Virus record (IMG/VR): IMGVR_UViG_3300008954_003018 | Location: 1-64,000 of that record | Direction: 5' to 3' (one strand) | Source of the DNA: a virus | Length of the DNA stretch: 64,000 nt | Shown here: positions 10,611 to 43,333 of the stretch, piece after piece | Layout: each line of letters starts with the position of its first letter | Numbering within the stretch: the stretch's first letter is position 1 | Made by a program: the position numbers and the translations under genes | Notes under the pieces: model-generated | Seen by the model: the letters and a program-made list of their open reading frames with translations, nothing else | Databases searched by the model: none | Told to the model about the DNA's origin: nothing

Positions 10611-10670
10611 ATGGAACTAGCTAGATTAAAAAAAATAATCATAGAAGAACTACGTAAACTTCTAGAATAA
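10611..10670 (+). CDS. 19-residue stand-alone type A tag peptide
   Basis: Encodes MELARLKKIIIEELRKLLE, the amphipathic type A tag by itself, ending in the LLE triplet. The same pattern opens the next four larger genes. No good ribosome site is visible upstream, only an A-run. It may be a remnant of a tagged gene or a free tag competing for the same receptor. Confidence 0.4.
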   Translation: MELARLKKIIIEELRKLLE

Positions 10671-10691
10671 TGATGAAAAGCTAAATTTTAG

Positions 10692-10704
10692 TACTATTTA
10701 ATAT
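10692..10704 (+). promoter_or_regulatory. ACTATTTA motif (putative late promoter)
   Basis: TACTATTTAATAT, 18 bases before the ATG at 10723; AGGAG lies between. Confidence 0.55.
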
Positions 10705-10722
10705 ATCAGGAGTGTTAACAGC

Positions 10723-11919
10723 ATGAAAATCACTAAATCAATATTACAAAGAATCATACAAGAAGAATTGAGCTTAACCTTGAAAGAAGCGTTTTGGCCG
10801 TTCGGCGTACGCCTAGGCGATATCGTAGAGCCTGCAGCGCAGAGTGTCGCGCGGTCAGACCCGGCATATACAGCAGACGCCGCGGCCAACATATATGATC
10901 GAAACATGCAACTGTTGCGAACAAATCTAGGAAAAGGCTACGGTCGACATCGACTGGGAATTGGACCAGAATTTGCCGCACCGCCGCTGCAGCAGGGAGA
11001 CTTTATTGATTTAGACGGTGATGGCGAAAACGATTCTGCAACAATATTGCGCCTTGCCTTAAAACACCACTTAGAAGATGATGACGCGGCGATTAACACG
11101 GTACCGGCATACGAAGCCGATCCGTTAACAGCTGGCGGAGCGCTGCTAGGAGACTATTTAGAGGAAACAAAACATATGAAAATCACAAAATCAATATTAC
11201 AAAGAGTTATACAAGAAGAACTACAGGCAGTACTGCAGGAAGAAAATTTTACACCTGCGGACTTTGGCCAAGAGCAGATGACGCACGTGGCACCGGTTAC
11301 GCAGGGTTCAAGTACGTTCGTTCCAGTAGGCATTGAAGACGAAAGTACCCGCACATCGTACCCTGTGAGCAAGACCCCGATGAGCCGTATTGACCGCCGC
11401 GAGCCTGGTAGTGTCGATCTTAAGCCCTCTGAAGAGGCGCGCAGAGACTTTGTCACCGGATCCACGATTGGAGTGGTCGGTGAAGCGCTTTCATTCGAGC
11501 AAATTGTACAAGAAGAATATGATATGCTAATGCAAGAAAAAGAAGAAAAGCTAGTGACCCCAGCAAAAAGTCCGAAGAAGGGATTCACAAAAGACAAGAA
11601 AGTCACAGTAAAGGGCGAATTCGGTGGCAAGAAAGTAGTAACGTTACCAGGAAAAAAATATGATCCCGGTAAATTTCGCGATGATGTTAAGATAGTCCAC
11701 ACGGGCCCAAAAAAGCCCAAGTATACGCCAAGAGTAACAGTAGGCGGCTTGGTCAAGCGCGACATAGAAGATGTATATGGAAAAGAAGATAAGAAAGAGA
11801 AGAAAAAAAGCAATCTAAAAGTAAGCAAGAAGCCGACAGATAAAGATACTGCAGCTCTGCGTAAACTAAAGAAACAGAAAGAGAAAAACATCGATGCTAA
11901 AGCGCGGAAGAAAAAATAA
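10723..11919 (+). CDS. multi-tag putative internal virion protein
   Basis: 398 residues with three type A tags: MKITKSILQRIIQEEL at 1, MKITKSILQRVIQEEL at about 151, and FEQIVQEEYDMLMQE near 260. Each tag ends in an LxE-like triplet (LKE, LQE, MQE). The first two tags match at 15 of 16 residues, so this is a duplication that became one frame; an ACTATTTA box and an AGAGGA site precede the internal ATG at 11175, which may give a second product of 248 residues. The C-terminal third is Lys-rich and disordered (KKEKKKSNLKVSKK). No enzymatic motif. Packaging inside the capsid is inferred from the tags. Confidence 0.7.
   Translation: MKITKSILQRIIQEELSLTLKEAFWPFGVRLGDIVEPAAQSVARSDPAYTADAAANIYDRNMQLLRTNLGKGYGRHRLGIGPEFAAPPLQQGDFIDLDGDGENDSATILRLALKHHLEDDDAAINTVPAYEADPLTAGGALLGDYLEETKHMKITKSILQRVIQEELQAVLQEENFTPADFGQEQMTHVAPVTQGSSTFVPVGIEDESTRTSYPVSKTPMSRIDRREPGSVDLKPSEEARRDFVTGSTIGVVGEALSFEQIVQEEYDMLMQEKEEKLVTPAKSPKKGFTKDKKVTVKGEFGGKKVVTLPGKKYDPGKFRDDVKIVHTGPKKPKYTPRVTVGGLVKRDIEDVYGKEDKKEKKKSNLKVSKKPTDKDTAALRKLKKQKEKNIDAKARKKK
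11152..11164 (+). promoter_or_regulatory. internal ACTATTTA motif with in-frame start
   Basis: GACTATTTAGAGG lies inside the coding sequence, 10 bases before ATG 11175, copying the promoter-to-start layout of the other late motifs. Confidence 0.4.
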
Positions 11920-11997: not shown

Positions 11998-12023
11998 ATT
12001 AAAAGGACAAGGGTTAACCACAC

Positions 12024-12575
12024 ATGAAACTAACTAAATCACGACTACAACAAATTATTAAAGAAGAGTTACAGGCAGTTCTCCAAGAAACCGGCCCATA
12101 CCAAGATCAACATCCGGGTAGTGGCTGTGATCCTTCCGTGCAGACATGTGTTGGCCCATCGGTTGAATTGGGTAGTGAATTTGATTACGGCGGCAAAACG
12201 GCTGATGTGGTTAGATCCTACCAAGCCGGGCAATCACGTGACATGTCACCTCATTCTAACCAAACCCTTACCGGCGATTTCCAAACACTACTAGCGCATG
12301 CAAGTGAAGTTGGAGATGCTATGGACCCGGGTATGAGGCAGCATATGCATGATTTAGGCCAAGAATTACTGGCCCGGGGCTATCCAGCCAATTTAGTTAA
12401 TGCGCAATATAAGACATTTGGAATTAACCAACAACAACCACAATATAAACTGCAATTAAGAAATTTAAACAAGGCACCGGGAGAGGAGGGCTTTGTGCCC
12501 ATCGATGAGTCAACAATCAAAAAACAACAACTGCAGGATATTATTCAAGAAGAATTACGAAATGTTTTGCTATGA
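12024..12575 (+). CDS. double-tagged putative internal virion protein
   Basis: 183 residues with a type A tag at each end: MKLTKSRLQQIIKEELQAVL at the N-terminus (LQE follows) and KKQQLQDIIQEELRNVLL as the last 18 residues. The middle is Gln/Gly/Pro-rich with LAHASEVGDAMDPGM and QELLARGYPANLV. No recognised domain. It overlaps the next tagged gene (TATGA), which starts with yet another tag, so two tags are adjacent at the gene junction. Confidence 0.7.
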   Translation: MKLTKSRLQQIIKEELQAVLQETGPYQDQHPGSGCDPSVQTCVGPSVELGSEFDYGGKTADVVRSYQAGQSRDMSPHSNQTLTGDFQTLLAHASEVGDAMDPGMRQHMHDLGQELLARGYPANLVNAQYKTFGINQQQPQYKLQLRNLNKAPGEEGFVPIDESTIKKQQLQDIIQEELRNVLL

Positions 12576-13660
12576 AGTTAACCAAGGCCAAATTGCAACA
12601 AATTATCAACGAAGAATTACTAGTTTGTTTTAATGAAGAAAAAAAAATTTTGGTAACTGAAAGCGAGGCGCGACAACCTCGTCGCGGAATGGAATACGAT
12701 ATCGAAAAGGCCCCTCCAATTGATTATGCTGCTGGGCGGGGTTCAACATACGAAGATTCATATGGCGAAGAAAGGGCAGCTGCTCCTAAACAAGAGCTAT
12801 CTTCTGAAGCTTGGGAAGATATTCTTCATATGGCCAACGATCCATTTTCTGTGTATCATAACATGGCGCTTGACGCAATACGAGCTGAATTACCATCACC
12901 GTTCTTTACCCATCACATGCCGGGCATGCCGGGCCTATCGAAAAAAGAAGCTAATGATTGGTTATATTCTACTGGCTTTAGCGGAATAGAAGGTCATGGT
13001 GAAGCTGCAGACTATGAAACAACACTTGTATCTCCCCACGTACCTGAGCAGTACGCGGGCGAAAAATCGCCCGGCCATATAGATCTATATAGGTGGGGCA
13101 TTGCTCCTGGTATATATGAAGAAAACTTAAAGCGAGTCGTAAAAGAAGAATATAAAAAATTATTGGAAGAGCATGCGAAAGATTACGTTTGGGGCGTCAA
13201 GGCTCCCTACGGGCGCGCCGCCAATCAATATGAGCTAAAAACACTTCATGAATCAAAAGCTGGGATATTGCCGCCCGGGCAAGCATCACATACTCCGACC
13301 ACAGCTGGTAACCCTGAAGAAGAAAAGAATTGGCCAACCGGAGGTAAATTATATCGTAAAGGGTGGCACAACAAGCCTTATGATATGTGGTACCGACACG
13401 GGCCAGCGCAAGCAAACGCCGTTCCAGTTTTTAGTCCTGCCAACCAATCTCGCGAAGGCAGCAGATGGAGCATCACACCACTTGGGTGGCCCAACGTTCA
13501 AGAAATGGACAAAATATATGGCGCTGGTGGTCTAGGCGAAGAAAGCCCTTTTCCCATCGGCGGGCCTTATGAGCGAATATATATACCGGCCGGAATAAGG
13601 CAAGGACCTGAAATGGACGCATATATAAGAGAAAGTGCTCCATGGTTGTTTGTTGATTAA
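12572..13660 (+). CDS. tagged putative internal virion protein
   Basis: 362 residues. Type A tag at the N-terminus (MKLTKAKLQQIINEELLVCF, followed by NEE) and a second in the middle, NLKRVVKEEYKKLLEEHAKD at about residue 187. The C-terminal half is Gly/Pro/Trp-rich (WPTGGKLYRKGWHNKPYDMW) without a recognised fold. Translationally coupled to the previous gene. Function unknown; the tags put it in the cargo/scaffold class by inference. Confidence 0.7.
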   Translation: MKLTKAKLQQIINEELLVCFNEEKKILVTESEARQPRRGMEYDIEKAPPIDYAAGRGSTYEDSYGEERAAAPKQELSSEAWEDILHMANDPFSVYHNMALDAIRAELPSPFFTHHMPGMPGLSKKEANDWLYSTGFSGIEGHGEAADYETTLVSPHVPEQYAGEKSPGHIDLYRWGIAPGIYEENLKRVVKEEYKKLLEEHAKDYVWGVKAPYGRAANQYELKTLHESKAGILPPGQASHTPTTAGNPEEEKNWPTGGKLYRKGWHNKPYDMWYRHGPAQANAVPVFSPANQSREGSRWSITPLGWPNVQEMDKIYGAGGLGEESPFPIGGPYERIYIPAGIRQGPEMDAYIRESAPWLFVD

Positions 13661-17681: not shown

Positions 17682-18104
17682 ATGAAATTGACCAAAGAAC
17701 AATTACAAAAACTAATACAAGAAGAATACGAAACGATGGTAGGTCCAGAAATAGTAACAGATCCATTAACCGGCCAAGAGTATGAAGATCCTTACGGGGG
17801 AATTGCAGCGAATTTAGCTACTTTTGGAGAAGCTTATCCGTTTGACTATGATCCCTATGCAGCGCCGGAGGGCTATCAAATTCCACATTTTGAACCTCCT
17901 CCTTCGTCAGGATATTATGGGGGCCCCCTGAATAACGCTTATATGTCGCCGGAGGAAAGTGAGGCCAATGTGATGCGCGCAGAACAGGAAAGGGCGGAGC
18001 AATTGCTACAAATGAAATCTCTTTTAGATCCAGGGCCGGAAGGTCCAACAGAAGAGCAAGTTCGTAATGAGCTTATACGGCAAGAAATGGAAAGAAACCA
18101 GTAA
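17682..18104 (+). CDS. tagged small protein
   Basis: 140 residues starting with a type A tag (MKLTKEQLQKLIQEEYETMV). The rest is Pro/Tyr/Gly-rich and disordered (HFEPPPSSGYYGGPLNNAYM) with a Glu-rich helix at the end. No domain recognised. Follows the nucleotidyltransferase by two bases, so both probably share a message. Confidence 0.65.
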   Translation: MKLTKEQLQKLIQEEYETMVGPEIVTDPLTGQEYEDPYGGIAANLATFGEAYPFDYDPYAAPEGYQIPHFEPPPSSGYYGGPLNNAYMSPEESEANVMRAEQERAEQLLQMKSLLDPGPEGPTEEQVRNELIRQEMERNQ

Positions 18105-19411: not shown

Positions 19412-20896
19412 ATGAAAGATTATTTTACAGGTTGGCGAAAATACCTTTTAGTTGAGCGCTATTCAATGCAGGCTGCGTATGAAGCCATTAAGCCCAACAA
19501 CAAGAAAATGTATAACTTATATAATAGGTACGTTAATCAGACTTGGCACTGGGACGTCGAAAACGGCTATATTGACCCAAGAGATGATCCAGAGCCGCCA
19601 GCAGATGAAGAAAAAATAAACAAAGCAGCTGCCAGTTACAGAAATTATATATTAGAAATAATACCAGAAGACATATGGGGCCCAAACGTAACAAGCCCAG
19701 AACAAAAAAAGAAAGAATCCGATAAAAATCAAGGCCTTGCAATGATGTGGGTTCGCAAATTAGCCCTTAAGGATCCAAATCTAGCCAGAGATATTATAGA
19801 TGGCGAAATATCATTTACAGGTCAAGGTCGACCTTATGCAAATATTATGCCCGACCTTGAAATCTACTTCCAAAATCTAGATTTAATGCCAAAAAGGAAC
19901 TTAATAGAGCTTGAATCATTTGAAGAATTGCATCAAATGGTAGAAGCGGCAAAAGAAGAAATTCATGCTCGACAACAAGAAAGACAATACCTCGACGCAG
20001 AAGAGGGAACAGAAGTTTTAAGAGATGATGGGGAAATATATATTGCCGCTCTCCACAATAAAGGCGCTGCATGCGAATTGGGAAAAGGAACAGATTGGTG
20101 TACAGCTGCGCCTGGTTTAGATTATTTTTCAGACTATTATGAGCCAGATGATCCATTGTTCTTTTTTAAACGGAAACCGAAAACCGATCCGGATAAGCCT
20201 GAATTTATGCAGCGCGGCCACAAATCTCATCCGGGTGGTGAAGAAAAATATCAATTTCATTATGGCTCTGAACAATTTGTGAATGTGGAGGACTACCCGG
20301 TCAGTGATAAACTATTCAAAGTACTTCACGGTTTTCTTATGCAAACAGAAGCACCACAAAAATATCCAGTTGTACAAACCTATCACTACAATCTCGTGGC
20401 CGATGATCCAAGCACACCTCCAGAAGAGTTGAATGATATGGTTGAAGCGTTTGGGAATCTCTTGACCACCCATGATCATTACCACGCGGGTTTGACGTCT
20501 GAAGTCTTGTCAAAAGTTGCAAAAAACCCAAACACGCCAATTGAAGCACTTAGAAAGCTTTCTAATTCGCGCGATAAATTTATTATTAGAAGCGTTCAAG
20601 TTAACGAACAGTTGGCGAATTTATTAGGCCCTGACCCAACAGAAGAGGGCATGAAATTAGCAAAAGAAATATTCCTCAACAATATAGAAGATCCACTAAT
20701 ATTTGACAGAGGTTTGAAACAATTCGGCCGCTGGATAAAGGCTGGAATAATGTCCAAAGAAGAAGCAAATAAAGCATTAAAGGATCATGTGGAGGCAGAA
20801 GAATTCCGCAAAAAGGCAAAAAAGGTTGCAAGGTCTGATGGGGGGTCTCAAGCAACATTAAGAGAGCGCAAGATCAGAATAAGGATAAAGAAATGA
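19412..20896 (+). CDS. large protein with type B tag, unknown
   Basis: 494 residues. N-terminus MKDYFTGWRKYLLVERYSMQ is a type B tag (WRxYL then VE). The core has the sharply conserved-looking segment KGAACELGKGTDWCTAAPGL (about 216-235) with two Cys and a following DDPLFFFKRK, possibly an active site. The second half has short repeats (NPNTPIEALRKLSNSRD) like Leu-rich/armadillo turns. Lys/Arg-rich end. Function unknown; internal virion location inferred from the tag. Confidence 0.7.
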   Translation: MKDYFTGWRKYLLVERYSMQAAYEAIKPNNKKMYNLYNRYVNQTWHWDVENGYIDPRDDPEPPADEEKINKAAASYRNYILEIIPEDIWGPNVTSPEQKKKESDKNQGLAMMWVRKLALKDPNLARDIIDGEISFTGQGRPYANIMPDLEIYFQNLDLMPKRNLIELESFEELHQMVEAAKEEIHARQQERQYLDAEEGTEVLRDDGEIYIAALHNKGAACELGKGTDWCTAAPGLDYFSDYYEPDDPLFFFKRKPKTDPDKPEFMQRGHKSHPGGEEKYQFHYGSEQFVNVEDYPVSDKLFKVLHGFLMQTEAPQKYPVVQTYHYNLVADDPSTPPEELNDMVEAFGNLLTTHDHYHAGLTSEVLSKVAKNPNTPIEALRKLSNSRDKFIIRSVQVNEQLANLLGPDPTEEGMKLAKEIFLNNIEDPLIFDRGLKQFGRWIKAGIMSKEEANKALKDHVEAEEFRKKAKKVARSDGGSQATLRERKIRIRIKK

Positions 20897-20937
20897 AACT
20901 CCTATTTGAAAATTGGCGAAGGTCTCTAAATGAGTGA
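20893..20937 (+). CDS. 14-residue stand-alone type B tag peptide
   Basis: Encodes MKLLFENWRRSLNE, nearly identical to the N-terminus of the Nudix protein (MKLLFENWRRYLKE) but followed directly by TGA. It overlaps the upstream gene (ATGA) and the nuclease gene (GTGA). Either a translated coupling leader or a tag separated from the nuclease by a frame change. Confidence 0.5.
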   Translation: MKLLFENWRRSLNE

Positions 20938-21284: not shown

Positions 21285-21490
21285 GTCATCTAAAAGACAA
21301 TGACGAAACATACATTAGTCATTTTTTATTTGCAGGAAAGATTGGGTTAACTTTAATTTTTAGAGGAACTATATTTTTATTGCATGCACTGTTTCCGATA
21401 GCTGATGTACCAAAGCGCTGGAACTTGTTTGCTACAATATCAGAACTAAAAGAGTGGCACTCTTATACAATTACGAGAAAAAACAAATGA
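21281..21490 (+). CDS. DUF6356-like small membrane protein
   Basis: 69 residues: MSHLKDNDETYISHFLFAGK, a hydrophobic helix (IGLTLIFRGTIFLLHALFP), then IADVPKRWNLF. The HL...ESYxxH then HALFP layout matches what I recall of DUF6356 membrane proteins found in marine phages and bacteria. One or two membrane passes. Overlaps both neighbours by four bases. Confidence 0.65.
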   Translation: MSHLKDNDETYISHFLFAGKIGLTLIFRGTIFLLHALFPIADVPKRWNLFATISELKEWHSYTITRKNK

Positions 21491-22005
21491 AACTATTATT
21501 TGAAAATTGGCGAAGGTACTTGAAAGAAGACAAGGATATAGATTCTGTTGTTAAAGTTGTTATTTTAAACGATGAAAATAAAATTTTAATTTTAAAACGA
21601 AGTGATGATGAAATGTGGAATTTACCGGGTGGCCACATGAAAGAAAATGAAAGCGAAGAAGAAGGTGCAAAAAGAGAAGTCTCCGAAGAAACTAATTTAG
21701 CTGTTGAGAACTTGAAGCCAATTGGTGAAAAAGGCAAAATAAAGTACTATGAATCTAAGGAGTTTAGTGGTATAATAGAGTTAAATGAAGAACACACAGA
21801 ATATGTGTGGGAGAACAGCGAGGAGATTGCAAACAAGGATATGCATCAAAAAGATAAAGACATTATAACTGAAAAGTATAATAAATTAGAAGAGTTTGAT
21901 ACAAATATCCCAGGCCAAACACTGGTTTATGGAGATCCCAATAATGCCGGTGGATTAAATACAAAGCCTAAAAAGTTTGCTGACGAAGAAAATGAAGGAA
22001 GTTAA
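21487..22005 (+). CDS. tagged Nudix hydrolase
   Basis: 172 residues from ATG 21487, which overlaps the previous stop; an upstream in-frame ATG lies in the other gene. N-terminal type B tag MKLLFENWRRYLKED (LKE then D). Nudix box GGHMKENE...REVSEET at about 48-70 has the expected Glu residues. Hydrolyses nucleoside diphosphate derivatives (NTPs, NADH, ADP-ribose, caps); substrate cannot be told. The acidic C-terminus TLVYGDPNNAGGLNTKPKKF may be a linker. If the tag is cleaved, the enzyme would travel in the capsid. Confidence 0.88.
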   Translation: MKLLFENWRRYLKEDKDIDSVVKVVILNDENKILILKRSDDEMWNLPGGHMKENESEEEGAKREVSEETNLAVENLKPIGEKGKIKYYESKEFSGIIELNEEHTEYVWENSEEIANKDMHQKDKDIITEKYNKLEEFDTNIPGQTLVYGDPNNAGGLNTKPKKFADEENEGS

Positions 22006-22591
22006 TAATTTAGTAAAAGAATGGAAGAAATTTTTATTAAAAGAAGATAAAACCTACCAAATATATTGTGATATGGATGGCGTTTTAGTAGATCTGGTTG
22101 GTGCCGTCTTAGAAAAGGCACAAAAAAATGCAAAAGATGAAAAGTTAAGAAAAGGTGTTGAAAAAATTCTAGCCATTGATTGGAGATGGACGGAAAAGAA
22201 TCCAAAATACCAGAAATCTTTAGATTATATTGATAACATGGTAAGCAATAATGTAGAATTTTGGGCAACATTGCCCCCAACATCAGATAAAGACGTTTTG
22301 TGGAGTTATATTTCACAATATGATCCAATTATCCTTTCTCACCCATGGGATGGAGAGTCTGCAGAGGGGAAAAGAGTGTGGGTTTCGAATTTAATAGATC
22401 CTCAACCAATTGATGTGATACTAACAGGCGACAAACACAGGCATGCTACAACAAAAGATGGTAAACCCAACATTTTAATTGATGATTTTGAAAAATATAC
22501 TGTCCCATGGGAGCAAGCAGGGGGCATTGCCATACTACATACTTCTGCAGAGGACACAATAAGCAAACTTAAGGCTTTAATGGAGCAATAA
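21992..22591 (+). CDS. tagged HAD-type phosphatase/5'-nucleotidase
   Basis: 199 residues from ATG 21992, overlapping the Nudix gene. Tag-like start MKEVNNLVKEWKKFLLKED (type B variant, LKE-D). HAD motif I is YCDMDGVLVDLVG (about 25-37: nucleophile Asp and the DxD acid/base), with IILSHP as probable motif II and ILIDDFEKYT as motif IV. This resembles phage 5'(3')-nucleotidases or polynucleotide phosphatases. Following Nudix and preceding another tagged protein, it belongs to the tagged enzyme series. Confidence 0.82.
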   Translation: MKEVNNLVKEWKKFLLKEDKTYQIYCDMDGVLVDLVGAVLEKAQKNAKDEKLRKGVEKILAIDWRWTEKNPKYQKSLDYIDNMVSNNVEFWATLPPTSDKDVLWSYISQYDPIILSHPWDGESAEGKRVWVSNLIDPQPIDVILTGDKHRHATTKDGKPNILIDDFEKYTVPWEQAGGIAILHTSAEDTISKLKALMEQ

Positions 22592-23338
22592 ATGAAGAAA
22601 TTATTTGAAAATTGGCGAGGATTAATTAAAGAATCAAGGGGTCCAAAGGGTTTTCACTATAAAATTACACAAAGTTCCAAAACAATAGTGATTTTGCCTT
22701 TAAGTTTGCAAACTAATGAACCAGAACCAGGAAAAGCAGAGGGAAATGCAGAGGTTGTTCTTGAAAAACGCACAGATATTCCCAATTGGCAGCTAGCATG
22801 GTCTAATGCACCTGCTGATTCAGAGGGTGTTGGTACGATAATGTACCTAATGGCACTAGAATTAGCCGGAAATGAAGGTTTATCCCCCGATGATTACGAT
22901 CAAAGTGATGATGCACTACGTGTTTGGGCCAAATTTATGCCCGAAAACAATAGATTTGGTGTTTCTAAGGTCAAAAAAGAGCAATTTGCCCACGATAACG
23001 ATGAAAATCCCTTCTTTTTTGTGTTCTACAAGCCGAATAGAGCCATTTTAAGCCGCTTTAAGGACCGTATATCGTATGAGGAGGGGTCGGAGGAAGAAAA
23101 GCCCGTCAAAGAGCCTGATATTGAGCCGTTCGACGTTGAAAATGACTGGGATTCTCTCTATGATGACGAAATATTGCAAGAAGAAGAGCCCTATCAGAAG
23201 AAAGTGAAGAAAAAACACCGCAGAATGAAGGTTAGACTGATTGGAAAGGGCAAAAACAAGCATAATGTGGGCAAAAAGATGAAAAAGCCGTCTTATAAGC
23301 GATCAAAAAGCGCTCCACCGGGCGCTGGTGGCTCTTAG
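22592..23338 (+). CDS. tagged protein with possible acetyltransferase-like core
   Basis: 248 residues. Type B tag MKKLFENWRGLIKES (IKE-S). The core has VGTIMYLMALELAGNEGLSP, a glycine-containing helix start reminiscent of small GNAT-like folds, then DDALRVWAKFMPEN. Residues after about 160 are acidic, then the last 50 are basic (KVKKKHRRMKVRLIGKGKNK) and disordered, possibly DNA-binding. The acetyltransferase call is weak. Starts directly after the previous stop. Confidence 0.6.
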   Translation: MKKLFENWRGLIKESRGPKGFHYKITQSSKTIVILPLSLQTNEPEPGKAEGNAEVVLEKRTDIPNWQLAWSNAPADSEGVGTIMYLMALELAGNEGLSPDDYDQSDDALRVWAKFMPENNRFGVSKVKKEQFAHDNDENPFFFVFYKPNRAILSRFKDRISYEEGSEEEKPVKEPDIEPFDVENDWDSLYDDEILQEEEPYQKKVKKKHRRMKVRLIGKGKNKHNVGKKMKKPSYKRSKSAPPGAGGS

Positions 23339-23607: not shown

Positions 23608-25542
23608 ATGCAGCATATGCCCTATAAGAACCTTGCAAGAATTATATTAGAAGAGTATTATAAGCTTATAAGCGAGTCAAAGGGCAAACTACCATCGACT
23701 ATAAGCAAAATAGGTAAACCGGTTCGTATACCTACGCCTAGGCTTCCAACTATTAGGCCTGGTTTGTTAAACCTCGGAAAAACCAGCAAAATAGGACAGA
23801 CTGGTCATGTTCCGGATGACGTGGGAGCGCCGCTCGAAGGTGAATTTACATATAGACCTTATGATCTTGAAGCGGCGCCGGTAAAAGAATTGACGCCTGC
23901 TGTTGGCGCGCCGCATGTAGAACCACATGGCCAGAACGTGCAGTATTTAGGGGTGCGCGAGGCTCCGGGTGAACCTGTAGATTATAGCGCGCTAAGAACG
24001 GAACTTGGTGGCATGCTGGCGCCACATTTTCGAAAAGAACCTGTAAATCCACAAAACTATAGTAGGGTGGCAATGCCGGGAGACGAAGGAAATTTAACGG
24101 TTCGGCCATCATATGAACAATTTGAAGAACTAGCACCAAGTGGTTTGCGCGATGTAATAAAAAGCATCACAGCGGATGTAAGGGCGGGGGTTATTACTCC
24201 ACACGATGCTGCTAGCTTTGTAATCGAGTATTATCCCCGTGAAGCAATGCAATGGCACACAAGACGAGGATATCTTGCGGATGTAGAAAAAGCAGTTAAA
24301 GCAAAGATAAAAAGCATCGATCTTTACCCTAGTGCTGAAAAAGTTGCGTTAGAAAAGTTAAGATTGAAAGCTGCAGAAGCTTTTGAAGCAAACAGACCGG
24401 TGGGAGTTGCAAGCACCGGAAGGCTTGATTTATCAGGTGGTTCAACCATGGAAATACTAGCTCAAGAAAAGGCAGTTATAGACAGCATTGCTCCAAGCTT
24501 GGCGCGCCAGTATTATGGTAAGGATTATGGTAATTTAACACCTGGAGAAAGAGCGACTGTTCAGGGTATTAGTAAAAACACGCTTGATAGTATAAAAAAT
24601 ACGCCCCCAGCGCAACTTCGTAAAAATATTGCAAATTTGGAGGCGCGCCAAGGCCAACAGAACCCATGGGAAAAGGCTGGAGTCTCGAAAAAGCTATGGG
24701 ACGAAGATGTTGCTGCGAGATGGGGACAATTAATTGATGAAGTACACCCAATGGTAGTAGATTATTATGTCGACGGAATTCGCAGTGGAAAAATTACGGG
24801 GCGCGCCCTACAACTTGCGCGTGGAACATGGATGAAAGATCCTTTTTATCGCGCAATTGTAAACAAACTGGAGGAACCCTCGCTTATCATCACTGATCAT
24901 ACCAAAGAACCTGCGATGACCGTTCGAAGGGACTTTAGCGAAGATCCGCGGGGCGTAACGGTTGTTGAACCCACAAAAACACACGAGGATTACGCACCCG
25001 GGATGTCTCTTGAAGATTTTAAAGGCGTTGAGGCGCCGAGTAATTCGGAATTGGCGTGGGCTCGTCACAGGGCACATACGCAAAGGGGCCATGAGGATAC
25101 AGGCCAACTCATTCCCGGAAGAACATATGGGATTCAAGCTTATGAGAGAGCGGTGAGCGAGATAGGGCGTCTAGGCATGCCTTTAACTCCCGGAGAAATA
25201 AGAGAATTGGCAACTAACAGCCCTACAGCATTGCGTGTATATCGCGACATTTTAAATTTGGGATGGGATGAGCACATTGCGCCCGGCCTCAGAACGCCAC
25301 GAGTGCGCGTTCCGGAGCGTGGGTTCGATTGGGACACACACTTACAAGACGTGGAACGGGAGATACAAAGGTTTGGGTATTCTCGTTCGGCTGCAGATGT
25401 ATGGGGTGAAAATCCACGTGGTGGTCTAACAGTTGTTGATGAGACACCGCCAAGAAGAAGAGGTCGCATGACAGAATTTGACGAAGCTAAAAAAATAGTA
25501 CAGAAAGAATACCAAAAGTTATTGTTGGAAATCAAGAAATGA
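23608..25542 (+). CDS. 644-aa tagged virion-like protein, paralogous N-terminus with next gene
   Basis: Begins MQHMPYKNLARIILEEYYKL with ISE-S, a type A-like tag, and ends FDEAKKIVQKEYQKLLLEIK, a second tag at the C-terminus. Residues about 25-80 (KLPSTISKIGKP, LPTIRPGLL, APLEGEFTYRPYD) match the start of the next protein, so the two share a duplicated module. The rest is Gly/Pro/Arg-rich with helical stretches; no catalytic motif seen. Large size and tags suggest a structural, internal or ejection protein. Overlaps the next gene by ATGA. Confidence 0.7.
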   Translation: MQHMPYKNLARIILEEYYKLISESKGKLPSTISKIGKPVRIPTPRLPTIRPGLLNLGKTSKIGQTGHVPDDVGAPLEGEFTYRPYDLEAAPVKELTPAVGAPHVEPHGQNVQYLGVREAPGEPVDYSALRTELGGMLAPHFRKEPVNPQNYSRVAMPGDEGNLTVRPSYEQFEELAPSGLRDVIKSITADVRAGVITPHDAASFVIEYYPREAMQWHTRRGYLADVEKAVKAKIKSIDLYPSAEKVALEKLRLKAAEAFEANRPVGVASTGRLDLSGGSTMEILAQEKAVIDSIAPSLARQYYGKDYGNLTPGERATVQGISKNTLDSIKNTPPAQLRKNIANLEARQGQQNPWEKAGVSKKLWDEDVAARWGQLIDEVHPMVVDYYVDGIRSGKITGRALQLARGTWMKDPFYRAIVNKLEEPSLIITDHTKEPAMTVRRDFSEDPRGVTVVEPTKTHEDYAPGMSLEDFKGVEAPSNSELAWARHRAHTQRGHEDTGQLIPGRTYGIQAYERAVSEIGRLGMPLTPGEIRELATNSPTALRVYRDILNLGWDEHIAPGLRTPRVRVPERGFDWDTHLQDVEREIQRFGYSRSAADVWGENPRGGLTVVDETPPRRRGRMTEFDEAKKIVQKEYQKLLLEIKK

Positions 25543-28500
25543 AAAAAAAGAAAATCACCATCAAGATGAACGAATCAAAAAGCAAATTACCATCAACTTT
25601 AAGTAAAATAGGCAAACCTAGACCACCAGGGCCATCGCTTAAGCTACCAGTTATTAGGCCTGATTTATTAAAAATTGGCAGCCCCACTATTTCAAACACT
25701 CCACGAGCAGTAGATGCGCCACTTGAGGGTGAATTTGTATATAAACCTTATGATCCTGATGTATTAAAACCAGAGGTGCATTTGATGCCGAAGCCGCCGG
25801 AGACACCTGATCTTGCGCGCGGGAAGCAGCCTGATTACGATTGGCTGGAAAGCGAGGTTACACCTGCGGCACCAGTAGAAACTCCAGTTATAGAGCCGTG
25901 GGAGTCGCCATTACGTTTAGACGACCGACAGCCATTAATGGCAGCCAGGGAAGAAGAAAAGCTGGTTAATGGTTTGAAAAATTTTCTTGCGAAAGAATAC
26001 TCAAGCGGCCGGTATAAGGAAAAATGGTTAGATGCCGGGGTACCAGAAAAAGTGTACGATGAGCTTGTTTTGCCGCGCGTAATAAAAAAAATCAACGCCA
26101 CGCCAATAATTATTTCAAGTCAAACACCTGATGGGCTTAACCCAGAAATATGGGAGAGGGCTGGTGGCGTATATGCCCCGCCGGGTGCAACTGGGACACC
26201 ATGGGGGAGCGTACAAATAAGAACACCATCAGATATAGCAAAATATTCCACCGGAGGCATGTCGACCTTGGGAACACTGGCTCATGAAGTTGGCCATGGT
26301 TTTTCTTATGATCCATATTTGGTTGCAATTTACAACAAATTCAGAAGTGCTCCTAATCCTGCGCAAGAGTTCCTAGCAAACAAAGCATTAGTTAGGAGCG
26401 GCATACCGGCTGAAATTATTCCGTATCTCAAATCGCACGGCTTAAGTGCAGCGCAGCAAGGTCTTTATCGTTACTACCCTCCGGAGCATGCGCAATCCAT
26501 TTATATACCAACTGCTACACTGGCTCAAATGCAGGCTTATGAGCTAGATAGTTTACTTGATCTTGGTCAGCATGGCGGCCAGATTGGAGACCGTCTAACA
26601 CCTGGAGAATTGCTGGGTTATAAATGGGCGCAAAATTTTAAAAAATATCGTGCTGGAGACACTTCTCCAGAAGTGAAGGAAGCTGCTCTTCAGGAATATA
26701 AATGGCGAAGCAATATAGAGGAAATATATGCAGATGTAAAAGCAGTTGATGCTATTTTAAAGCGCCCAATGACAGGGAATGATATTAGAGAAACTTGTAT
26801 GGGAGTTCGTACTGTTGGTTCGGCTGCAATAAATGCTGTCCCTTCGTTTAGGGATTTTTTAAATTGCAAACACCCTGAAAAGGCTGCTTCTATATTCAAC
26901 AAAATAGTCCAAATCGGCATTGCTGGTACTGGTGCTGCAGCTGTTGGTGCTTCCGAGGGAGATGGATCACAAAGCTTAAAAGAAGATACACAAAATAAAA
27001 TAAACAAAATTATTTCTGAAGAAATTGAGAAAATGTTGTTAGAGGCACCTGTGATACCCGCTTCTTTTGCCGATTATTTAGATACACCGCATGCAGCTGC
27101 TCTTCGAAGAAAAATGGACTTCTTAGGTTCAAAACATTCTCTCCCCTACCCTCAAAGCATGGACGTACGCCCGAAGGAAGAAATCGGTGGTGGTTATACA
27201 GACGAATTTGGCTTGAAGCATCAAAAAGGTTCACAGCGCGTGACGCCCGGAGAGCAACTTAAGCACGAAATTGCAATGGGCGGCATGAACTGGAAACAAG
27301 GTGTCCCGGGATATTATTTACCATGGGGCGGCCCTAAAGATCCTAAAGATCCCCGCGGGGCGCCAAGAGGTTGGATATATCAAGGGCCCGGAACACGAGA
27401 AGGTGGGGGTTCCACACCGGTTCCTCCGCAAAGAATGGGCGGCTCTAGTGCTCTAAAAAAAGATCCGAGTGGTTATTTTCAAAGATTTGGAAAGGGCAAA
27501 CGAACTTGGTCTGGTGTGCCAAGAGGAAAAAATAAAGGACTGAGATATGGCTACATTCCCGGCTCAGAATTAAAGGCGAAAGTGGACGAATACACCAAAA
27601 CGAGAAACATACACAAAGATCTAGAAGACGAAACGTGGCAAAATTACAGAGGCCGCTCAAGTTTTTTCAGTGAAGATTCCGGAGATTTAGATGGTCCGAT
27701 TGTTCGCTCATATCAAGATCCAAAAACAGGCAAGTGGCATCAAACCACAATTGTACCGATGGCAGATCCATATAGGCAGGGACCGGATCCCAGTAAAGAG
27801 GGAAAGTCATCATGGTTAGATCTGTTTACTGGTGGCGGATCTGGTGTGGGATGGACTGGCATGCCACACACTGGTCCAAGCGCATCGCGGCAGCTAGAAT
27901 TAAACAAAGAAAGAATGCGTCGGTGTGCAAATGATCCTAAATGTCTTGATAAATTAAAATCAAAATGGGAAAAATCTAAATATTTCCCTGGAGCAACAGA
28001 AGGGTTCGGAAATCTTCCTCTCATGTGGCCTGGATGGGAACAACTTACAGATTATTGGACCGGAATACAGTCGCCCGGAACGCATCGTGCTGCCCTACCA
28101 GATGAAAGCAGTTATCTACGACATTTGGGTGTACCCAAGAAAGCTACACAAAAGGTTTTTAATAAAAAAGATTGGCATTATTTAAACGACAGAGAGAAAG
28201 AGGTCGCTAGTTTTAACTATTGGGAGCGCAAAGAGAATAAAGATAGAATTCCTGAACTTTTGAAAAAACAAGAATCTGGTGATCTTACCGATAGAGAAAG
28301 ACTGGAACTAAAAGGGTTAACGTATGTAAAGGAGTTTAGTAAAATCGCAGACAAATACAAAAAAGCGATGGGCCCGGGCTATGAATATTCTAACCCTGCA
28401 TATGCAGGTGACGTTCCTTATCAGTTTAATCTTTTCACAGATCCTATAGAAGTAACTCCAGCCGGTATACCGGCCATGCTTTGGAGAGGGCTAGCCAAGG

Positions 28501-30527: not shown

Positions 30528-30553
30528 TTATTTTTATAAACTAAAGAAAACGC

Positions 30554-30581: not shown

Positions 30582-30602
30582 TATATATAGAGGGCTTGTG
30601 CG

Positions 30603-32747: not shown

Positions 32748-32772
32748 CAAAAACAAATTAATATATAAGAAT
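32744..32772 (+). promoter_or_regulatory. possible sigma70 promoter
   Basis: TTGACA 32744-32749 overlapping the lipoprotein stop, 17-bp spacer, AAGAAT 32767-32772 as a poor -10. The ATG follows at 32781. Confidence 0.45.
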
Positions 32773-32780
32773 AGTAATAT

Positions 32781-33176: not shown

Positions 33177-33191
33177 AATTGGAAATTAAAT

Positions 33192-33458
33192 ATGAAAACT
33201 ACTATAAAATATGTGGTTGCTAGCGTTTTAGCTTTTGCTATAGGCGCTAGCGGAGCTTATTATGCAACTACACACAAATATGAAGCCAAGATTGTGCAAC
33301 ATCAAAAGACCATTGATGACGCTGCAGCACAAATTAGTTCTTTTTGTGAAGGACAGAAAGTTGGAGACATAAGGATTACTAGGGCTCTATGTGGCGATGT
33401 TAAAGAATATTGTCTCTGTGTACATCCAGATAAATTTCGCGCAGATTTTCATCAATAA
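33192..33458 (+). CDS. small exported Cys-containing protein
   Basis: 88 residues: N-terminal hydrophobic helix (VVASVLAFAIGASGAYYA) as signal or anchor, coiled-coil linker (KIVQHQKTIDDAAAQIS) and a C-terminal part with four cysteines (CEGQK, CGDVKEYCLC). Probably periplasmic and anchored. No family recognised. Confidence 0.6.
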   Translation: MKTTIKYVVASVLAFAIGASGAYYATTHKYEAKIVQHQKTIDDAAAQISSFCEGQKVGDIRITRALCGDVKEYCLCVHPDKFRADFHQ

Positions 33459-33491
33459 CGTTCTGTTATAATGGTATAAAGCAATTGCTTA

Positions 33492-33503
33492 AACTATTTA
33501 TTT
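33492..33503 (+). promoter_or_regulatory. AACTATTTATTT motif (putative late promoter)
   Basis: 15 bases before the ATG at 33519, which also has AGAGG. Confidence 0.58.
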
Positions 33504-33518
33504 ACAGAGGTTTTTTGT

Positions 33519-35390
33519 ATGTCGTCCAAAAATGTATATACTCTTTTCAAAACATTGCGTGAGTACCTTAGTGAAGAAACGGTACAACTAGATATATCCT
33601 TACCAGAAGAAGAAAATGTCGGAGAAATTGAAGCCAAAGAAGCTCGATGGGTCGATAACTTATCTGATAGTGACCCGGGCGTATTCAATTTAAAGCTAGT
33701 AAAATCACAATTCAAGTCTCCCAAAAAAGATATGCTACAGGAACAGGGTTTACATGGATTTGACTTGCCATGGGCGTGGAAAGATAAAATATTAGCACTG
33801 GCTCCGCCTGCAGAACCTGTGGATTCAGTTCCGGGCGGCGTGATTCTTCCCGGACCTCAAAAAGCCAAAGAAAATCCACTCAAAGGCACAGATTTGGAGC
33901 ACATCCAGCCAGAAGTGACACACCCAAAAGAACTGGCTGGTCAATATATAATAGAGCCTTTCGAAATCACTGCTCGTTCTAAAGAAGAGCAAGATAAAGC
34001 ATATAAAGACTCACTTAAACAAGTTTTTTTACCGCAGTCCGGACTGGAAGATTCTTCTGAGACGGGATATACAGCCGGGCGTAAATGGAGGCAATATGGA
34101 GAGTCGCGAATGGCGCGAATGTTGACTGATGTTGCACAAGAGTGGAAAAATAATCAAGAAGATTTAGTCGACGAAAAGGGAAGGTGGGGCCCCATTGAAT
34201 ATTGGGATGTGTCCAAAAAGGGAGGGGGCGAGTTTCCACCGCATGTCAGCCACCAATCAGGGAGAGATGTTGATATCGCAACGTTTCTCAAATCAAAGGC
34301 CCGCGGCTCTGCTAATATGGCCACCATTAGTACCGTTGATATGTATAGGATGTATAGGTTGGCTGAAATGTATATTAATTGGTCAGCGGATAATCCGGAG
34401 CCGCACTGGATTGACAAAGAAACAGGACTAGCTAAAAATCCGATGGTGATATTCTGGAATCAAGAATTAATTGATGCAACAAGAAAATGGGCAGAAAAAA
34501 AACACAAAGTGAATGGTGAGTGGGTATACAAAAACAATGTCAGCGAAATGACCAATGATGCAATGTTTGGCACGTGCACAAAACGGAATTCTCGGGAGGA
34601 GTGCGTAAAGCGCAAAAAAACATCTGATGTTAACAGGGGGCCGCGGACGTTTCGTCATGAACCTGGACATGCAAACCATTATCATATACGTACAGACCGA
34701 AGTTATGGAAAAAGAAACAAAATAAGATATGCAAACAAAGGTGAAAAACCATCTGTTTATATGCCTCCGCCTGAGCCGGAAGGGTTTGATCCAAAGGTGC
34801 GCATGAAAACTGCAGAGGATGAAGCAAGAGAATGGAAATGGAACGACAAGACACAACAGTGGGAAAATATGTTTGAGGGCGGCGCGGAGCAGGTTTATAA
34901 CGTAGGCGGCGGAGGGCGGCCAGATCAAACAGTCCCAGTACCAGTGCCGACGCAAAAACTGTCGACGGTGCCCCCCAGTAATAAAATTAAAAAAGCGGCA
35001 AAAAAGAAGAGGCGGCACCGGGGCGTTTTTAAAAAGGCACCTAGTGGGCCCGAGACTATGAAAAACCTTATTAAGAGTGGGATATATGGGCCATTGGATG
35101 AGCAGATGGGGGCGCCCATGGATCCTATTCAGCAACAAATTCAAATGTCCGTAATGGCAGCACAAGAACAACTCGGTCCTTTGTTTGGTCAGTTGCAAGG
35201 AATGATTGTGCAAATGCGCACTTTAAACACCCCAGCAGCCAATCAAGAGGTAAAAAAGCAAACTAATAGAATTGAACTAATTACTAATGACTTAAACGAC
35301 GGAGATATTGATGTCATGGCCGCAATTGGTCAATTGGGTAACATTGCAAACGACATGGGCAAGAAAATGCAAAAGTTAACACAAGGGTAG
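33519..35390 (+). CDS. 623-aa virion-like protein with M74 (MepA-type) murein endopeptidase domain
   Basis: N-terminus KNVYTLFKTLREYLSEETV resembles a type B tag with LSE-E. SHQSGRDVDIATF (about 245-257) and GHANHYHIRTD (about 386-396) are the two zinc-ligand blocks of penicillin-insensitive murein endopeptidases (peptidase M74), which cut D,D- and L,D-crosslinks. After about 430 come a Pro/Val linker, a Lys/Arg-rich stretch and a Gln-rich coiled coil (PIQQQIQMSVMAAQEQLGP). Likely a virion-associated peptidoglycan hydrolase or lysis enzyme. Followed four bases later by another large peptidase-bearing protein. Confidence 0.85.
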   Translation: MSSKNVYTLFKTLREYLSEETVQLDISLPEEENVGEIEAKEARWVDNLSDSDPGVFNLKLVKSQFKSPKKDMLQEQGLHGFDLPWAWKDKILALAPPAEPVDSVPGGVILPGPQKAKENPLKGTDLEHIQPEVTHPKELAGQYIIEPFEITARSKEEQDKAYKDSLKQVFLPQSGLEDSSETGYTAGRKWRQYGESRMARMLTDVAQEWKNNQEDLVDEKGRWGPIEYWDVSKKGGGEFPPHVSHQSGRDVDIATFLKSKARGSANMATISTVDMYRMYRLAEMYINWSADNPEPHWIDKETGLAKNPMVIFWNQELIDATRKWAEKKHKVNGEWVYKNNVSEMTNDAMFGTCTKRNSREECVKRKKTSDVNRGPRTFRHEPGHANHYHIRTDRSYGKRNKIRYANKGEKPSVYMPPPEPEGFDPKVRMKTAEDEAREWKWNDKTQQWENMFEGGAEQVYNVGGGGRPDQTVPVPVPTQKLSTVPPSNKIKKAAKKKRRHRGVFKKAPSGPETMKNLIKSGIYGPLDEQMGAPMDPIQQQIQMSVMAAQEQLGPLFGQLQGMIVQMRTLNTPAANQEVKKQTNRIELITNDLNDGDIDVMAAIGQLGNIANDMGKKMQKLTQG

Positions 35391-35393
35391 ACA

Positions 35394-38615: not shown

Positions 38616-41600
38616 TGGGTGGTGCTGCAGGACACATGGCACATCCTTTTGATTTGCCCGAAGTAAATACTGGAAATGATTTAATCAATTTCTTTCAAAC
38701 AGCGGTAGATCATTTACAAACAAATGCCGGTAGTGTTAAAATTGATGGAGTTAACGTAAGCTTTAAATTAATTGACGGACCTCAAGGCAAAGAATTTGCA
38801 GTTGATCGTGGAAGTACAAAACCAATTGACATTGAAGGGATAACAATAAGCAGAGTTAACGAAAGATTTCCAGAAGGTCATGGAATGCGGCCAGCTATTA
38901 CAACTCTATTGACAATCCTCAATGAGGCTCTCCCAAATATAAAACGACAATTGCAGCAATTGGGAATGTGGTATGACCCCACGAAATTCTTAAACACAGA
39001 ATATGTCTTAGGACAAACAAACGTAACAGTATATGATAAAAACTTTTTAGCTATTCACGGCTTAAATCAGTTTTATGAGAAAACCAATCAAAGAACCGGC
39101 GTTTCTAGACCGGGAACTAAAAGACCCTTAAACAATAAAGCTCCGAGTACAGAAGTAGAATATAGCGACGATCTAATGGAGTCTTTAGTTGCAGAAATTG
39201 GTAAAGTAGCTGGTAGGTATGGATTTGAAGTTTATGGATCCGTGCCAACAGAATCCATGAAGCCTGTTAATTTTTCTAGTACCTTAAGTACCCCTTTTAC
39301 TGTTAATTATGGATATGAAGAAAATGGTGAGGTGTTCTCAGACACAAAAACCCTTCAAGAATGGTTGGCAGAGGCCAATAATCCCCGAGGGGCAACTGTC
39401 AATTTAGCCGATGGTAGAAAACAAGGGGCCATGAGCAAATTAGTCTACACAGAAATTTTAAATGGCACTTTAATAACTGAATTGTTGCAAATTGGTGAAG
39501 ATTTTTGGCAGAACATGCAGGACGGGGGAAATATAGAAGGAACGGAAGTAGAATTAGCTGTAGATGGCGCAATATTCTACCATGCAACCAGATTGTTGGG
39601 AAATGATGTTTTAGAGACACTCACAAGCCCCATGGGAGACGTTCTAAGCCACGAAGGAGTGGTTATTAGGGGGTTATCCTCTGTGCCGGTTAAAATCACC
39701 GGAGAATTCATCGTACAAGGCCTACAAACGGCCTTTAGAGAGCAGAAAGAACTTTATGAGCAGAATATACCGTTTGCAGGCGAAAAGTCCCATATAGCCT
39801 TCATTCCGGGCGGATTTAAGCCTCCGCACAAAGGGCATCTAGAAATGGTTAAATATTACTACAATAAAGTGGGCCCAAATGGGACAGTTGTTGTTTTAAT
39901 GGGCGGTGGTGGAAAACAGCCGAGAACAATCAATGGAAAACCCATAACTTTGCAAGATTCTATGAATATATGGGAAACATATTTAAGAAATGATCCTGGA
40001 ATTGATTGGCCCTCTGATAGAGTGGAGTTTCAGAGTGTTGAAGGTGTTGGTCCAATTGCGCCTATTATAGATTATATAAAAGAGAAAGCAGATCCAGAAA
40101 CTGAAGTTATTCATTTGGGCGCTGGTGCGAAAGATGCTAATAGATGGAAAATGATGCTGGATAATTCCAAAAACAACCCGAGAGGAGTTGAATTACATAT
40201 TGATCCTGCTCCAAATATGGTAGATTCAGAAGGAAATCCATTGAGCGCAACTGTTATGCGAAGATCTGTTGAAGAAAAAGATCTAGACACCTTTAAGAGA
40301 TTTATTCCCGACACCAGCCTTCATACAGCTGAAGATTTGTTTGTTATGCTGAGCGGTGCTTTATTAACAGAAGGAAAGGAGGATGACCCACTTCCTGTGG
40401 GTATTTTTCTGCGGTTAATTGAAGAAGAGGTAGATAAAGAAATATTAAATGAAAATTTATGGGACACTTTAGATAATTGGAGGCGCAGATACGGCCGTAA
40501 AATCCTTAATCCAATCGAAACAACGGCAGGAGTGTTGGGCGATCTTATCGGTAAACAAGAGGCCGGAAAAAAAGCAGAACACCTTACAGATAAATTAGCA
40601 GACACTATTACATCTCCATTTGATCCTTTAATTAATCCAGTGGTTGATTATCTATCTGGTCGGAGAGACATTGATCCGCCAAAAGGGCCGGGCGGAAGTA
40701 CACCAGTTATAGTACCTCCATATGACCCTAGGACAGAAAAAATAAATCAACTTTTAAAACAAAGAGAAGACTGGAGTAAAAAACTGCATTTAAAATATTT
40801 ACAAGACAGAGAAGAAGCTTATTATCGAAATCCGGAAAGATGGGAAGGGAAATTACCCGAAGAAGGATATTGGGGACCTCATGAGAATAGCCCGACAAGT
40901 AAAACGACTTACGATGCGTGGTTAAAATCTGGCGCGTACAGAAAACATTTTCCAAACTTAACACGAATTAGCACTGATGACCCAAGATTAAAATGGTATT
41001 GGAAAGATATGGATCCCTCCAAATTAGAACAAGTATATGGTACTCGCGATGGACGTTGGCACGACCCACTAAAAGAGTCAAACACACTTTCACCAGATAT
41101 GTTTCTAGAATTAATTGAAGAAGCTATAGCCAGCACAGATTTATTTGGTGGCAGGAAAGACGATGCCAATATGTATCCTCAATGGAATGCTCAAGCTGCT
41201 GATGATGCAATATATGATAATGACGATACAATACCGGTAACTGAAGCTAGTGGAATGGCAGCCGGTGATGTTTCTGGTGGCGGTGTAGGAAATAGGCCTC
41301 CGGGAGCTTGTGATGATGAATACTTAATTCGTGAAGAAGACAGTGAAACACCTGAAGTTAAAAAACCTGCTGAAGTTAAAAAACCTGCTGAAGTTAAAAA
41401 ACCTGCTGAAGTTAAAAAACCTGCTGAAGTGGCTAGCTGGCAGGATGACCCGAGCTATGAATCATCTCTCCCTCCTCAAAACAAGCAAGAAGAAACCCAC
41501 GAAGACAAAATAAAGGGTATGAAGTTTTATAATAACTTAAAAGACGATACATTTAAAGAGGCTTTTAACAAGGCCTATAAAACATATGGCTGGAAAGGGG

Positions 41601-42556: not shown

Positions 42557-42574
42557 GTTAAATGAGAAATTTAT

Positions 42575-42587
42575 ACACTATTTACTG
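42575..42587 (+). promoter_or_regulatory. ACTATTTACTG motif (putative late promoter)
   Basis: ACACTATTTACTG, 20 bases before the ATG at 42608, with GTGGAG between. Confidence 0.55.
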
Positions 42588-42607
42588 TGTAAAGTGGAGC
42601 AAAAATA

Positions 42608-43333
42608 ATGCAAACTGAAAGAGAAGATTTTATAAATGAAATTTTGGAAGAAAGGAAGCTTAGAGAGGTGGTTCGAGCCGGTATTAAAACCATACTGGAG
42701 AGGAAAAAGAAAGTCGTTGACGAGTCGATGCAGCTTAAATCAATCATACAGCATATAATTAAAGAAGCAAAAGCTAAAAACATTGCTGTACATGATTCCA
42801 CCGGGATGAATAGATTAGAAGATCTATTTAGCAACACTTCTTTTTTAGATACTCTGGAAAAAGCTTATATGTCGTTAACTTCGGCTCCAGAACAAAGAAA
42901 GTCATTTCGTGCACATCTTTTGAATGCAGTAGAGGCGTTACTGCAAACAGATGATCTAAACAGATCTGCAGATGCAGAGGAGGCTGGTAGTAGTAGCCTT
43001 ATGACTAGACCGGTGAAACCTATAGCAGAAGATATTGATGTTGATATCGATGATGACTTTAGTGATGATGTTGAAGATGTTAACAAATCTGATGAAGAAA
43101 AGGAAGAAGAAGACTTTAGTATTCCCGGGATGGATGAAACAGGCAGAAATATCGCCTTACAAGCTTTTAATGGTCTTAAAGATTTAATTAAAAACGCTCT
43201 AAAGCCAATTGTTAATTCTGAAGATAAAGAATTGTTTATGACATATTTAATTAAAAATTTAAATTTATATTTAGATACGTATGAAGAATCGATTACTGGT
43301 GACTTTAAAAATCAAGAACCAATGATGCCATAA
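42608..43333 (+). CDS. putative scaffold/core-like protein with tag-like helices
   Basis: 241 residues. The N-terminal 70 residues contain amphipathic helices (FINEILEERKLREVVRAGIK; LKSIIQHIIKEAKAK) similar to type A tags. The centre is an acidic stretch (DIDVDIDDDFSDDVEDVNKS); the C-terminal part is helical (NGLKDLIKNALKPIV). Charged, coiled-coil and acidic composition fits an assembly core or scaffold, but no homology can be claimed. Has its own late-type motif. Confidence 0.6.
   Translation: MQTEREDFINEILEERKLREVVRAGIKTILERKKKVVDESMQLKSIIQHIIKEAKAKNIAVHDSTGMNRLEDLFSNTSFLDTLEKAYMSLTSAPEQRKSFRAHLLNAVEALLQTDDLNRSADAEEAGSSSLMTRPVKPIAEDIDVDIDDDFSDDVEDVNKSDEEKEEEDFSIPGMDETGRNIALQAFNGLKDLIKNALKPIVNSEDKELFMTYLIKNLNLYLDTYEESITGDFKNQEPMMP

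Follow-up and report, generated by a model that had tools for sequence, protein, structure and literature searches.

Two classes of short tags on unrelated proteins of T4-like phages as probable capsid-targeting sequences

The DNA analyzed here, called the window, comprises bases 1-64000 of the 85,938-base virus record IMGVR_UViG_3300008954_003018. In this window, proteins that are otherwise unrelated carry a short tag, mostly at the N-terminus, which belongs to one of two classes, A and B. It was found that the tags form a family with N-terminal placement, that their carriers are unrelated, that in related phages they are concentrated near the gene for the prohead protease and that they show the residue spacing of the T4 capsid-targeting sequence. 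The two classes are probably capsid-targeting sequences of the T4 kind, which would bring diverse proteins into the prohead, where the protease would cut them and free the cargo for ejection. Each tag is predicted to form an amphipathic helix of short length. With its hydrophobic face, at residues 8 and 11 of the aligned tag in both classes, this helix may bind the prohead core and would by this means build any attached protein into the prohead. A protease of the gp21 type would then probably cut after a nearby (L/I/V)xE glutamate, i.e., E14 and/or approximately E22, which would set the cargo free within the head to be ejected together with the DNA, and classes A and B would be interchangeable and serve one purpose.

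Type A tags follow the consensus MK[IL]TKxxLxxIIKEEL. The preliminary description of this DNA had listed copies of a recurring amphipathic pattern standing alone, at both termini and inside proteins, and the family proved to be larger than this list. The profile A2, built from 35 N-terminal type A tags of other phages, recovers eight copies in the record to which the window belongs, with E ranging from 2.8e-12 to 7.4e-4. Its rows are foreign but were selected by likeness to the window's tags, which makes the test independent as regards the sequences and dependent as regards their selection. A second profile, which contains N-terminal tags only and includes those of the window phage itself, was run on 134 open reading frames (ORFs; 37,496 residues) of the window phage and a twin contig, where 11 matches scored ≥6 bits; 20 shuffles of the same proteins gave none. 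Two copies are new with this profile, an internal one at 13112/13115 (8.1 bits) and another in L086. The listed copies at 11497, 23608 and 25485, which look alike (xxIVxEEYxxLLxE), were supported neither by A2 nor by the N-terminal-only profile, and profile A1 contains the 23608 and 25485 copies themselves. The reported recurrence is in part confirmed, and these three copies are left without independent support. The twin contig (118,471 bases) is 99-100% alike in the compared parts, adds approximately 32 kb upstream of the window's record and holds further type A and type B copies. By calculation the tags are amphipathic helices, with a helical moment of 0.43 for 53 tags vs. 0.26 after shuffling. 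The low-confidence predicted structure of ORF 12024 has helices at residues 5-22 and 167-182, i.e., at both of its tags; the structure predictions were poor (mean pLDDT ~41), and the fold search returned nothing below E 0.4.

The distribution of the tags was followed in related phages. The window's record contains a gp25-type baseplate gene (PF04965, E 1.3e-9), and the adjoining protein, baseplate-like by eye and without a Pfam match, has 137 relatives in viral contigs. From 80 of these, 23 related records were picked mostly for length and not via the tags, while LR756508 (484 kb) was added through tag A itself. With the profile that includes the window's tags, tag A was detected in 22 of 26 records, namely the two copies of the window phage, 19 of the 23 relatives and LR756508, which has 24 matches; tag A is missing from four contigs, which are 47 to 67 kb long. 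In the best-match loci of other phages, 33 of 36 unique tag A matches start at a Met codon and two more within five residues of one, and 46 of 48 unique copies have the tag A glutamate as residue 14 counted from Met. Of these 23 relatives, 12 contain tag B (the type B profile has rows from some of them); LR756508 gave no tag B match. No tag A match was obtained in T4, P-SSM2, KVP40, phiKZ, Mel-JY01, RM378, LR756511, XacN1, Atu_ph07, SPN3US, SPO1 or T5, and Flavobacterium phage immuto showed two weak matches, one of them at the start of gene 190. Among 13 other named phages, tag B gave one weak match (LR756511, E 0.026). The searched open-access literature contained no recognizable report of such tags in this phage group.

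The second class, type B, has the consensus MKLxFENWRxxLxE (e.g., MKLLFENWRRYLKE) and occurs in the window at 20893, 21487 and 22592; the sequences at 21487 and 22592 are rows of the type B profile, the one at 20893 is not. The copy at 20893 is a bare tag, whose TGA overlaps in another frame the GTG start (GTGA) of an ORF at 20934-21284 that follows directly and resembles SNase (PF00565, E 2.5e-11); the twin contig shows the same arrangement. The carriers of the tags were compared in a set of 63 proteins, taken from other phages and from the twin contig: at E 0.01, no Pfam family is present in more than one and no PHROG in more than two, and apart from the tag they are unrelated to one another. 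Searches of the window's own tagged proteins against Pfam and PHROGs yielded little. The type B-tagged protein at 21487 is a NUDIX hydrolase (PF00293, E 9.8e-17), the protein with a type B-like start at 21992 is weakly NT5C-like (PF06941, E 1e-4, below its cut-off), and the ORF at 33519-35390 has a weak match to the murein endopeptidase family PF03411 (23.4 bits vs. a cut-off of 25).

In related phages the gp21-type (S77) protease, PF03420, was found in 13 of 25 related records (12 of the 23 relatives and LR756508), and all 13 contain tag A with a best E of at most 4.4e-4. A protease-centered sample was composed of the best 80 of at least 600 stretches matching one query, with locus G012 among them; the loci reach only ~9 kb to each side of the protease and are mutually related, some nearly identical, so that the counts are not independent. 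In the protease loci that were inspected, the gene order is T4-like: terminase and portal are followed by a number of small genes and then by the protease, after which come a conserved protein whose start is tag-like and, later, scaffold-like and capsid genes; the T4 order is gp20, 67, 68, 21, 22, 23. In G012 the terminase (PF03237) and the portal (PF07230, E 1.8e-76) were checked; the remaining genes were named on visual inspection and from their resemblance to the annotated loci of Mel-JY01 and immuto. The 80 loci contain 1,092 mechanically called forward ORFs; profile matches to tag A were obtained in 70 of them and to tag B in 61, compared with 0-2 tag matches in each of five shuffles. From three genes before to two genes after the protease (slots -3 to +2), 93 of 360 genes are tagged, including ten instances of the conserved core protein and one false match; none is tagged among 262 genes at slots +3 to +8 or among 126 at -5 and -4. 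The classes have their own places: tag B at slots -3 and -2 (24/138), tag A at -1 (21/80) and tag B at +1 (33/76), with tag A reappearing further upstream at -6 to -13. Of the 12 tag A matches at +1 and +2, ten belong to the conserved core protein encoded after the protease, whose tag-like start reads KKxELKxLIKPLVKECIxEVLxEEGLL, and the single tag B match at -1 is an apparent chance match to a membrane protein. In an earlier sample of 80 loci centered on the major capsid protein, in which the protease was reached in just ten, tag A is present in four of the eight genes immediately before the protease and in 6 of 880 genes overall.

The T4 internal proteins ipII and ipIII start with MKTYQEFIAEA. 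It is stated in PMC9026906 that the first ten residues of IPIII suffice for targeting, that residues 4 and 7 of the T4 capsid-targeting sequence matter for targeting and residues 8 and 10 for processing, and that gp21 cleaves after L/I-x-E. In tag A, columns 1, 2, 8, 11, 12, 14 and 15 are conserved; tag B has W8, mostly hydrophobic residues at 11 and 12, and E14. Since columns 8, 11, 12 and 14 of tag A are conserved, the T4 spacing is repeated, and tag A, tag B and T4 MKTYQEFIAE share the arrangement hydrophobic-x-x-hydrophobic-[IL]-x-E. In the 80 loci it fits 47 of 48 unique tag A copies and 34 of 48 tag B copies, an agreement that is partly built in because the copies were selected by profile. 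Without a profile, the bare spacing is too unspecific and was discarded as a tag finder.

A (L/I/F)xE triplet, of the type cut by T4-like prohead proteases, had been described near the end of every copy. A [LIVMF]xE lies 4-14 residues past the core glutamate in 44 of 55 N-terminal tags (six of the 55 from the window phage), as against ~13-14 when untagged proteins from these loci are measured in the same way and ~20 after local shuffling, and in 20 of 55 it lies exactly eight residues past it. The steadier triplet sits within the tag itself, i.e., II.E at residues 12-14, and the two bare tag ORFs (10611 and 20893) terminate exactly on the glutamate of an LxE. The downstream motif [LIVM]xEG[FLIVMW] follows 20 of 101 tags vs. 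13 of 725 random positions of untagged proteins; as a mark of tags it was set aside, since it occurs in residues 14-59 of 54 of 725 untagged proteins and the contrast is less clear. Some of the untagged proteins in this comparison may themselves be head proteins. For the capsid proteins, an LxE, mostly LLRE, is present at the T4 gp23 cut position in 79 of 80 close relatives of one query, and the next residue is S, A or N in 76. T4 gp23 carries FLTE/A at the aligned position, which we take to be its cut site. The triplet at the tag end is frequent but not general and is missing, for instance, at 17682 and at the C-terminal copy 12516.

The comparison with T4 IPI, IPII and IPIII shows likeness and difference. 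In common are a short N-terminal propeptide-like stretch of one spacing, carried by otherwise different proteins, and a gp21-type protease in the genome (here, in the genomes of relatives). In contrast to T4, two classes occur here, the stem is longer (the tag A glutamate is at 14, not 10), the carriers are numerous, copies are also C-terminal and possibly internal, some tags stand alone as bare ORFs, and no sequence relation is detectable by profile. For C-terminal propeptides such as the copy at 12516 a precedent is T4 Alt, which PMC9026906 describes as processed at both ends. For P1 DarB, an N-terminal stretch was reported to be sufficient to bring a protein into the head, and no common N-terminal consensus of the P1 Dar proteins was found there by BLAST (PMC9024508). 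P1 also differs in having another protease (Pro). The T4 core proteins gp67, gp68 and gp22 have a similar neighborhood around portal and protease and an LxE near the N-terminus, but here variable tagged genes fill the slots beside one conserved tag-like core protein. Because the T4-like features are present and homology was not found by profile, the tags are called a variant that would work like the T4 capsid-targeting sequence, and not a proven member of its family.

Several observations speak against capsid targeting. Neither profile matches anything in T4, P-SSM2 or KVP40, so that homology to the T4 sequence is not demonstrated, and the spacing pattern by itself shows only a mild general enrichment at N-termini, which in the window phage (12% vs. 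5% internally) is about the same as in control phages (10% vs. 4%). After the tag, 11 of 55 N-terminal tags have no [LIVMF]xE at all, and of the 20 sites located eight residues downstream only 9 precede a small residue. The residue after E14 of tag A is E in 43 of 48 copies, unlike the A that follows E10 in T4 ipII and ipIII and unlike the Glu-Ala bond at which T4 gp22 is cleaved according to PMC9026906. Some tagged proteins resemble nucleotide enzymes (NUDIX and, weakly, NT5C) and not known head cargo. Finally, the gp21-type protease was not found in the window's record or in the 118-kb twin, both of which lack a terminase. As the terminase is missing from both contigs and the gp23 capsid gene from the twin (that search did not include the window's record), the head module lies off contig; under the capsid-targeting explanation the window phage would have the protease as well.

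The preliminary description had proposed a modular capsid-packaging code on many proteins, including polyproteins cut at several tags. The protease in the phage group, the tags beside it, the T4 spacing and the unrelated cargo argue for such a code, from which we infer delivery to the head. For the idea that polyproteins are cut at internal tags the support is weak: the copies at 26988 and 13115 have modest support, that at 11497 has none, and that at 11176, which has its own ATG after AGAGGAAACAAAACAT, could be a translation start within the ORF instead of a polyprotein tag. A general packing code of a large uncultured branch of T4-like phages, in which two interchangeable tags at starts, at ends and inside proteins send changeable enzymes and multi-domain proteins into the head, the protease frees them (polyproteins at several tags) for injection and the slots flanking the protease are the site of cargo exchange, is plausible, although we lean slightly against it in this full form.

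As an alternative, the tagged proteins could be core or scaffold assembly factors that are brought into the prohead and degraded there, and not host-bound cargo. The tagged slots resemble the T4 gp67-gp68-gp21-gp22 region, the conserved tag-like core protein accounts for 10 of the 93 matches near the protease, and T4 core proteins are described in PMC9026906 as cut into multiple fragments by gp21. In LR756508, however, 15 of the 24 tag matches lie more than 20 kb from its protease, the window has many tagged genes with no head gene in sight, and the cargo is very diverse and includes enzymes; this explanation is considered unlikely. Even less probable is that the tag is a docking helix for another phage structure, a host partner or a membrane. 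The tag helices are amphipathic, and a tubulin/FtsZ-like gene (44271-45362; PF00091, E 1.8e-7, slightly below the cut-off) closely follows the tagged part of the window and adjoins tagged genes in the relatives G010 and G012; but such a protein was detected in 5 of 34 records searched, compared with tag A in 22 of 26, and tags are already seen in phages without this partner, and a tubulin-based compartment was rejected as the general tag partner. The clustering beside the prohead protease, with empty slots at +3 to +8, -5 and -4, also disagrees with docking elsewhere. That the repeats are functionless, originating from recent DNA duplication or from chance MK-rich helical N-termini, can hardly be upheld. 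The copies at 10723 and 11176 are close in DNA, and the enrichment of the bare spacing in control phages fits chance, but shared residues differ in codon in 47% of comparisons (58% expected if independent), no shuffled protein matches, and tag A recurs in 20 other records on carriers without a common family.

If capsid targeting is true, many unrelated proteins of a common uncultured T4-like phage group bear labels for packing into the head, and a varied set would be delivered to each host. The short signal would then reveal which proteins, mostly of unknown function, these phages carry in their heads and inject first, and would yield candidate early take-over and counter-defense proteins from sequence alone. 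It would furthermore be a test bed for the function of capsid-targeting sequences outside T4.

Table 1. Tag copies and tag-like stretches in the window.
Feature	Position	Strand	Basis
Bare type A tag, 19-codon ORF MELARLKKIIIEELRKLLE and stop, ends on LxE glutamate	10611..10670	+	A2, E 6.6e-4
N-terminal type A tag of ORF 10723-11919	10723..10788	+	A2, E 6.6e-7
Internal type A tag, own ATG, possible ribosome-binding site	11176..11241	+	A2, E 3.2e-8
Tag-like stretch FEQIVQEEYDMLMQE inside ORF 10723-11919	11494..11538	+	located; no independent profile support
N-terminal type A tag of ORF 12024-12575	12024..12089	+	A2, E 2.8e-12
C-terminal type A tag of ORF 12024-12575, ends VLL and stop, without final LxE	12516..12575	+	A2, E 3.4e-6
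N-terminal type A tag of ORF 12572-13660	12572..12637	+	A2, E 4.3e-8
Internal tag-like stretch YEENLKRVVKEEYKKLLEE	13115..13171	+	N-terminal-only profile, 8.1 bits, 0 in 20 shuffles; missed by A2
N-terminal type A tag of ORF 17682-18104, terminal LxE absent	17682..17750	+	A2, E 8.2e-6
Type B-like N-terminus MKDYFTGWRKYLLVE of ORF 19412-20896	19412..19456	+	by eye; missed by type B profile
Bare type B tag, 14-codon ORF MKLLFENWRRSLNE and stop, ends exactly at glutamate	20893..20937	+	type B profile, E 4.2e-6
N-terminal type B tag on NUDIX hydrolase (ORF to 22005)	21487..21528	+	type B profile, E 9.0e-10; sequence is a profile row
Type B-like N-terminus MKEVNNLVKEWKKFLLKE on weak NT5C-like protein	21992..22045	+	by eye; missed by type B profile
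N-terminal type B tag of ORF 22592-23338	22592..22633	+	type B profile, E 1.9e-8; sequence is a profile row
Tag-like N-terminus of ORF 23608-25542	23617..23676	+	A1 (contains the copy) only; not A2
Tag-like C-terminus of ORF 23608-25542	25477..25530	+	A1 (contains the copy) only
Internal type A tag, 1662-residue ORF 25539-30527	26988..27044	+	A2, E 7.4e-4; N-terminal-only profile, 9.3 bits
N-terminal YTLFKTLREYLSE of ORF 33519-35390, spacing fits	33537..33575	+	pattern only
Internal tag-like stretch IFLRLIEEEVDKEILNE of ORF 38615-42556	40403..40453	+	by eye
Internal tag-like stretch MFLELIEEAIAS of ORF 38615-42556	41099..41134	+	by eye

The positions of all copies are given in Table 1. A possible third tag class was noted by eye in L086 (1461-2809), where two adjoining proteins show LLNExTxxRFMxLA...NFLxE, a stretch that ends in LxE. 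After the core gene of some loci a small basic protein is encoded (L242, 1831-2082; L174, 9143-9370), which resembles ribosomal S21 (PF01165, E 4.4e-6, 26.8 bits vs. a cut-off of 27) and whose counterpart in Microcystis phage Mel-JY01 is annotated as RpsU; it is comparable to the S21-like protein of the bS21 phages described in PMC9723584.

The 1662-residue ORF at 25539-30527 has relatives among viral contigs in the twin contig only. It belongs to a part of the window (25539-42556) with very large ORFs of 1662, 1073 and 1313 residues, in which HExxH-like stretches (AHEVGHGF, SHELIHH and VHEIGHS) are seen by eye. The protein encoded at 30603-32747, whose N-terminus looks hydrophobic and lipoprotein-like by eye, contains MopE metal-binding repeats (PF11617, E 2.3e-20) and matches VWA weakly. 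Runs of similar-looking proteins of ~60-110 residues, with a [KQ]VGDLV-like start recognized by eye, are located at ~6000-8000 of the window and at 13940-15532 of L086.

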